From Bartonella elizabethae F9251 = ATCC 49927 (GTDB lineage: Bacteria > Pseudomonadota > Alphaproteobacteria > Rhizobiales > Rhizobiaceae), in NCBI RefSeq assembly GCF_000518165.1, contig NZ_JADB01000004.1, positions 1 through 64,000 on the forward strand: a stretch of 64,000 nt of DNA. Reading direction: 5' to 3'. The first letter of the stretch is position 1. The number at the start of each line of letters is the position of its first letter. A program made the translations under genes and the position numbers. The notes below the pieces were generated by a model that saw only the letters and a program-made list of their open reading frames with translations, had not been told where the DNA came from and ran no database searches. Shown here piece by piece: positions 3,491 to 3,649 of the stretch.

Positions 3491-3649
3491 GTGCAAGGTT
3501 TGCACTTTGGGTGGGAGAGAGCAATTGGGACAAGTTGTCCCTATTCCTTAAAGGAGCAATAGGGTAATGTTTACCCAATTCCTCAAACAAGTAATAGTGC
3601 AAACATTGCACAATTGCATTAATGGTACGCAATACGGTCAAGTTGACTA
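3491..3649. repeat. Array of five short palindromes at ~35 bp spacing
   Basis: Four 15-bp palindromic cores lie at 3491-3505 (GTGCAAGGTTTGCAC), 3527-3541 (GGGACAAGTTGTCCC), 3562-3576 (GGGTAATGTTTACCC) and 3597-3611 (GTGCAAACATTGCAC). A fifth, weaker one is at 3637-3647 (GTCAAGTTGAC). Start-to-start distances are 36, 35 and 35 bp; the last centre is 38 bp further. The arms differ between units but always complement each other, and the flanks are similar (GCAAT[A/T] before, [A/T]ATTCC or AATTGC after). This is neither a CRISPR (no identical repeat, no constant spacer) nor an obvious coding repeat, since 35 is not a multiple of three. It may be a row of protein-binding sites or a hairpin-rich transcript. 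Just upstream, ATCAAAGG...CCTTTGAT (about 3438-3464) forms another 8-bp hairpin. Confidence 0.8.

Follow-up and report, generated by a model that had tools for sequence, protein, structure and literature searches.

A stretch of Bartonella DNA of 64,000 nucleotides, referred to here as the window, carries a row of short palindromes beside a tRNA-Met gene, set at nearly constant distances and with arms that change along the row. The question raised by this locus is what kind of element such an array is, and what could have kept its pairing while the sequence changed. An earlier note on the same DNA expected hairpins or dyad binding sites under selection.

Dyad array in the window

The array spans positions 3438-3647 and is composed of six dyads, to which no strand is assigned. 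Five of them had been described in the earlier note and are present where it placed them, with centres at 3498, 3534, 3569, 3604 and 3642 and spacings of 36, 35, 35 and 38 bp; the first one had been missed, and its centre lies 47 bp ahead of the centre of unit 2. All were scored with R1, a unit covariance model made from 36 Bartonella units of two contexts, tail-side arrays and a ParB-like gene. Unit 1 (3438-3464, ATCAAAGGTGCAACCTGCTCCTTTGAT), with class A flanks (ATCAAAG...CTTTGAT), is matched at 3436-3466 with E 0.004; it has two mismatched pairs, one of them adjoining the centre, and its counterpart in the homologue L044 is perfect (ATCAAAGGGTAAAGTTTACCCTTTGAT). Unit 2 (3488-3508, AAAGTGCAAGGTTTGCACTTT; match 3483-3513, E 4.7e-4) has arms of 9 nt and the core GTGCAA/TTGCAC, which returns in unit 5 (3597-3611, GTGCAAACATTGCAC; match 3589-3619, E 1.3e-5). 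Between them lie unit 3 (3527-3541, GGGACAAGTTGTCCC; match 3519-3549, E 2.6e-7), with the core GGGACAA/TTGTCCC and class C flanks (GAGCAATT...), and unit 4 (3562-3576, GGGTAATGTTTACCC; match 3554-3584, E 5.1e-7), with the core GGGTAA/TTACCC. Unit 6 (3637-3647, GTCAAGTTGAC; core GGTCAA/TTGACC) is weak or decayed in the window (CGGTCAAGTTGACT), its R1 match (3627-3657, E 2.6) is not significant, and a longer form (CGGTCAACATGACCG) is found in L003. The observation that flanks are partly shared between the units and that arms differ is borne out, and by this the array departs from a CRISPR with its near-identical repeats and unique spacers. Elsewhere in the window genome no R1 match with E below 1 was found among the best 150 of 968 candidates, which were scored; one place on contig C7 reached E 5.5, which is not significant.

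Comparison with shuffled sequences, suggested in the earlier note, gave a divided answer. Plain clustering is common: when the window was randomised 40 times under a first-order Markov model, 16 versions held at least four dyads (arms of at least 6) within 130 bp; in local shuffles of 600 bp the same cluster was found in 16 of 5000. Clustering of this kind alone does not exceed chance for a 64-kb window. The spacing is another matter: odd palindromes 34-37 bp apart form a run of up to four in the window, while in 300 Markov windows the maximum was one (269 times) or two (31 times) and four was never reached. It is the regular spacing, not the clustering, that is the unusual property of the array. 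A second four-dyad cluster (arms of at least 6, within 130 bp) is seen at 43690-43783 of the window, and such clusters are frequent in shuffles. Chance is untenable as the origin of the array because of the comparative evidence from relatives.

Prophage relic next to tRNA-Met

The array does lie between a dead phage tail gene and tRNA-Met, as had been recognised before. The tail gene remnant (3057-3353, forward strand) is the C-terminal part of a gpD-like baseplate hub (phrog_52, E 1.2e-23, profile 402-499 of 677), whose full-length homologue (L050:7236-8225) matches PF05954, and the array begins 85 bp past it. Junction comparison together with coordinates places the right terminus of a Mu-like prophage at 3934-3950 on the reverse strand (5'-TGTAGCTTGCCAGCTGG). 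From position 3950 it is 25 bp to the 3' end of tRNA-Met, the insertion neighbour (3976-4052, reverse strand; ARAGORN, Rfam RF00005). The gene beside tRNA-Met has named Bartonella relatives, the best with 97% identity, which bears out the genus named in the earlier note. The dyad GGTCTTTGAAGACC is seen at 3870-3883, about 230 bp past the array and before the phage right end, and also in the right-end regions of many tail-side loci.

Since the terminus at 3950, 25 bp from tRNA-Met, is shared with tail-side loci, the window is taken to keep a Mu-like prophage right end. Besides this right end, the window itself retains only the array and what is left of the tail gene; a homologous right end and tail gene are found in prophages carrying MuA and MuB, with the common right end TGTAGC. 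The window array appears to be a decaying relic of such a right end, the phage having been lost: a close copy of the phage-type ParB gene is missing from the window genome, where the one match has E 6.3e-6; imperfect pairing is seen in two of the six units; and in L002, the closest relative, one unit is altered in both arms without pairing (GGATAATGTTGACCC vs GGGTAATGTTTACCC). Arms changing without compensation at a homologous locus had been named in the earlier note as evidence against its reading, and this is what L002 presents; current selection at the window locus is not supported. Selection would have acted in intact phages, not in the window relic.

Tail-side arrays across Bartonella

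By DNA similarity the array was found in 33 of the 71 genomes of the genus, its own included. A covariance-model search of other Bartonella genomes, as had been proposed, returned units in at least 35 of 71, again with the own genome included and with 102 candidates per genome scored. Contexts were assigned from coordinates in G024 and G026, the two genomes listed in full, where all R1 matches with E up to 1 (best 150 candidates per genome scored) fall into a ParB-like gene or a tail-side array; G026 has two tail arrays about 33 kb from a ParB-like gene. That pairing is kept while the sequence changes is upheld by covariation among 36 related units, which was 0.646 against 0.174 in shuffled units and at most 0.085 with partners slid; these units were chosen on the inner 6 pairs, and the outer 8 pairs had no part in the selection.

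Tail-side units come after the gpD-like baseplate gene, in L031 and L044 about 15 bp or less from its stop codon, and their spacings are mostly 34-39 bp, with some of 45-48 and longer gaps. Beyond the arrays stands the common terminus 5'-TGTAGC. In 18 of 21 distinct tail-side loci (the exceptions being L033, L046 and L050) a tRNA gene, of one of seven isotypes, has its 3' end facing the array, and in these 18 loci as well as in L209 the first TGTAGC starts 1-43 bp past the tRNA. It looks as if Mu-like insertion had repeatedly picked out the 3' flanks of tRNA genes; the one G026 copy that was checked shows no target-site duplication. Right ends near tRNA 3' ends are seen in the window, L002, L003, L004, L007, L008, L031, L032, L034-L038, L043-L045, L048, L049 and L209, and in 13 of 19 right-end rows a span of 200 bp holds two to five copies of TGTAGC. 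The left terminus of L041, which is 98% identical to the MuA/MuB-bearing L040, reads inwards TGTAGTTTG.

In L033 and L050 the terminus is placed between the array and a HigBA/integrase element, and the array as a part of that element was dropped because the Mu-like right end intervenes. Past this right end L050 carries at 8976-10671 a HigB-like toxin, an HTH gene and a tyrosine integrase, and L033 has similar translations at 9724-11456, which suggests a second element adjoining the Mu-like prophage in both loci. The tail-side array was also considered as protein-coding and this was dropped, as the 35-bp spacing shifts the frame and the frames hold stops; an ORF of 85 aa runs across the tail-side array of L047 on the strand opposite to the tail gene. 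L031 is about 99% identical to L032 and L033, prophage copies of the same genome, but at the array's outer edge the identity falls to 82-83%, a pattern that a recombination boundary at the array would produce. The L031 array had no matches when the phage and plasmid collections were searched for distant DNA similarity.

Palindromes in ParB-like genes

The second context of the units is a gene with a ParB_N domain (PF02195; phrog_3264). In L039 and L040 this gene lies next to MuA, and in L040 both MuA (PF02914) and MuB (PF09077) adjoin it. The units are located in frame and make up the linker stretch ahead of the HTH; a Pfam scan of one array-bearing Bartonella protein returned ParB_N only. In the Bartonella copies this stretch is a string of modules (for example KSKGQVDPLIG, KVAKGQVVPLPNDG and EQLGKVYPIAQ) with one palindrome per module, cores and flanks being freely combined among the modules and spacings being mostly multiples of 3. 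The copies read were L053-L081 and L040, fewer than all ParB-like copies in the genus; with the truncated L075 and L080 excluded, and L040 and L053 being the same protein, at least one odd-length palindrome is present in 27 of 28, and L081 has an even-centred one with 14-nt arms (the count in L072 is spoiled by a run of N). No match between core type and HTH type was found by eye among these 28 copies, and one array holds several cores, both of which speak against binding by the encoded protein.

Outside Bartonella, a first set was drawn from genomes of the family and isolated phages, with the exact duplicates L117 and L051 dropped and the close relatives L090/L091 and L115/L116 each counted. 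Palindromes with arms of at least 9 occur in 22 of its 40 distinct genes (synonymous shuffles, 42 of 1200), and all 22 lie before the HTH, within a stretch reaching from the linker to the HTH that makes up about one fifth of the gene. A wider set, taken from 17 of 385 genomes of the class and 22 of 398 of the phylum without the duplicates L182 and L183, has no ORF in common with the first; it gave 12 of 43 distinct ORFs (shuffles, 39 of 1290), 12 of 12 before the HTH as judged from printed contexts, with the longest arms, 18 nt, in one gene. When both sets are pooled, arms of at least 9 nt are present in 34 of 83 genes, always before the HTH (34/34), and in 81 of 2490 synonymous shuffles. A strong site is absent from 49 of the 83 genes (18/40 and 31/43), which counts against reading the palindrome as a self-site for binding. 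Arms at the linker position are unrelated between distant phages, and phage POA1180 has only a palindrome with 6-nt arms there. In StopSmel, Aussie and RcapMu even a search tolerating up to 3 mismatches finds the site sequence at a single place; RcapMu has another, unrelated palindrome with 11-nt arms outside the ParB-like gene, so that strong dyads are not confined to that gene. The genomes of these three phages and POA1180 hold no array of at least three dyads within 130 bp and no tail-side array. Canonical chromosomal ParB genes, judged from sequence (L175-L180, L204), have a strong palindrome in 0 of 7.

The palindrome is also connected with the type of HTH that follows it. Among sites with arms of at least 6, the centre AA(C/G)TT is present in 19 of 26 genes with a type I HTH and in 0 of 11 with type II, which mostly have a CGA-like centre; types were assigned by regular expression, and the hypergeometric probability, calculated by hand with no correction for ancestry, is about 4e-5. 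For 43 genes with odd-centred arms of at least 7, the genes having a site being the scope of this test, distances between sites are correlated with those between HTHs (r 0.46) and those between N-domains (0.33). The partial coefficients are 0.35 for the HTH, reached by 0 of 2000 permutations, which ignore ancestry, and 0.04 for the N-domain. Site divergence thus tracks HTH divergence more than N-domain divergence. Linked inheritance without recognition could explain this correlation, since the palindrome adjoins the HTH codons.

Proposed function and rival explanations

Units of one model are carried by both contexts, strong palindromes of differing sequence occupy one spot before the HTH in many genes, and variation is paired. 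Taken together, the evidence inclines towards the units being candidate sites at which orphan ParB-type proteins bind and which their own genes encode; Bartonella phages would have expanded these sites into arrays, and the window array would be what is left of one near the right end. Binding of the encoded ParB-like protein is the likeliest function of the units; both this binding and its effect on the phage are inferred. An N-terminal ParB domain followed by an HTH is the layout of ParB, Noc and KorB, and Noc, Spo0J, ParB and KorB load on palindromes and spread. Among solved structures these four come closest in sequence, with matches confined to the N-terminal domain, and the linker palindrome is taken as the loading site; an AlphaFold model made for a relative is poor (mean pLDDT 59.7). 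The ParB-like protein would load at the palindrome in its own linker codons, ahead of those of the HTH, and from there it would spread, bridge or repress. Many relatives would have a single self-site, which Bartonella phages would have multiplied into the in-frame intragenic array, with a second, non-coding array placed about 300-470 bp inside their right end. For the phage, spreading or bridging might serve to regulate the adjacent transposase operon, to mark its own DNA or to bring its ends together.

A broader proposal is offered tentatively, as a possibility to be kept in mind. In Alphaproteobacteria and further afield, mobile elements may encode orphan ParB-fold proteins that are self-addressed, the gene spelling the protein's target as a translated pre-HTH palindrome, and target and reader may diversify together; Bartonella phages may have made of this multi-type arrays near both ends, which could serve to bridge these ends or to mark self DNA in transposition. 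If this is true, the target of an uncharacterised orphan ParB could be read directly from its own gene, and tested. If the pre-HTH palindrome is the target, the same stretch would be at once a protein linker open to change and a DNA site with symmetry, which is an unusual case.

It is unlikely, though it deserves consideration first, that the units are selfish protein-coding palindromic elements, that is small mobile or recombining palindromes tolerated in the ParB-like linker and beside the tail gene with no binding role. Such an origin would agree with units that are in frame, with flank classes and cores that combine modularly, with V, L or H at the centre of the peptide, which suits both orientations of the same core, and with the multiple copies in some genomes. 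However, the units are not dispersed, their matches in G024 and G026 being limited to two contexts, and one position of one gene family is occupied in distant phages by arms of unrelated sequence. Less probable still is mutational symmetry, in which hairpin-templated correction of quasi-palindromes during replication matches the arms and no selection for a binder is involved. It would account for perfect arms despite a freely changing sequence and for swaps of whole cores, but it leaves unexplained why all 34 strong dyads stand before the HTH and why centre type is linked to HTH type, and the relic copy in L002 decays rather than being corrected.

Compared with shuffles, the array shows stronger folding as RNA (z -4.5) and equally so with DNA parameters (z -4.9), and folding does not decide between DNA sites and hairpins. 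RNA hairpins, acting as 3'-end structures, attenuators or terminators of the phage late transcript and the ParB-like mRNA, are very improbable: the closeness of the first unit to the tail stop codon in L031 and L044 and a loose terminator pattern (satisfied by two units; 3 sites in the region against 0.9 expected from shuffles) speak for them, but many units have a 1-nt centre, there is no constant U-run, relatives lie mid-gene, G-U pairs are not enriched among non-Watson-Crick cells (46/298), and an Rfam search of window positions 1-8000 with E up to 1 matched the tRNA only. Of the two possibilities named in the earlier note, hairpins or dyad binding sites, DNA dyad sites fit better.

Comparison with known systems

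The ParABS system is resembled in that palindromic sites lie in or near a ParB-domain gene, as is the case in related loci; in the window the array is an orphan. A parS site is located inside spo0J. To our knowledge parS is nearly invariant across bacteria, whereas the arms described here differ from phage to phage and the site is part of the coding sequence, as codons of the linker. Judged by annotation only, and with many genes listed as hypothetical, the records of StopSmel, Aussie, RcapMu and POA1180 contain no parA gene, and the pair of a canonical invariant parS and a parA partner was not found. In sopC of the F plasmid, tandem units of about 43 bp each contain a 7-bp inverted repeat to which a ParB-type protein binds; these units are near identical, in contrast to the inner arms here, which vary unit by unit.

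Many dyad-symmetric sites in one phage group are also known from cluster O mycobacteriophages, where 17-bp dyad repeats are described as 31 copies of one sequence (PMC6439249). Phage proteins with dyad-containing binding sites in the gene that encodes them are represented by the lambda-type origin iterons in gene O and by the Bartonella ROR region, where gene 4 lies upstream of a helicase gene (PMC3610622). By description and neighbourhood the gene here differs from ROR gene 4, being ParB-like and part of a Mu-like early region; a connection with the BaGTA/ROR origin was considered on the basis of that paper. A 2025 survey of the ParB-CTPase fold ties many orphan ParB-like proteins to mobile elements and leaves their roles open, and in the portion of its main text available the strings 'palindrom' and 'intragenic' do not occur (PMC12704722). 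No account of a palindrome conserved among the linker codons of ParB-like phage genes was found in the literature searched, which takes in few subscription papers. Rickettsia palindromic elements are likewise in-frame palindromes in protein genes, but they are of about 150 bp and sit in many unrelated genes (PMC10969869), whereas here units of about 30 bp are seen in one gene family and one intergenic place in G024 and G026, with no dispersed insertion. PARCELs are tandem protein repeats arising from dyad-symmetric DNA and linked to mobile elements, and in this they are alike; they consist of a 25-residue amphipathic DUF285-type repeat (PMC2996958), in contrast to the Bartonella ParB-like protein with its single Pfam domain. 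The nearest known kinds are thus parS sites in ParB genes, Rickettsia palindromic elements and PARCELs.
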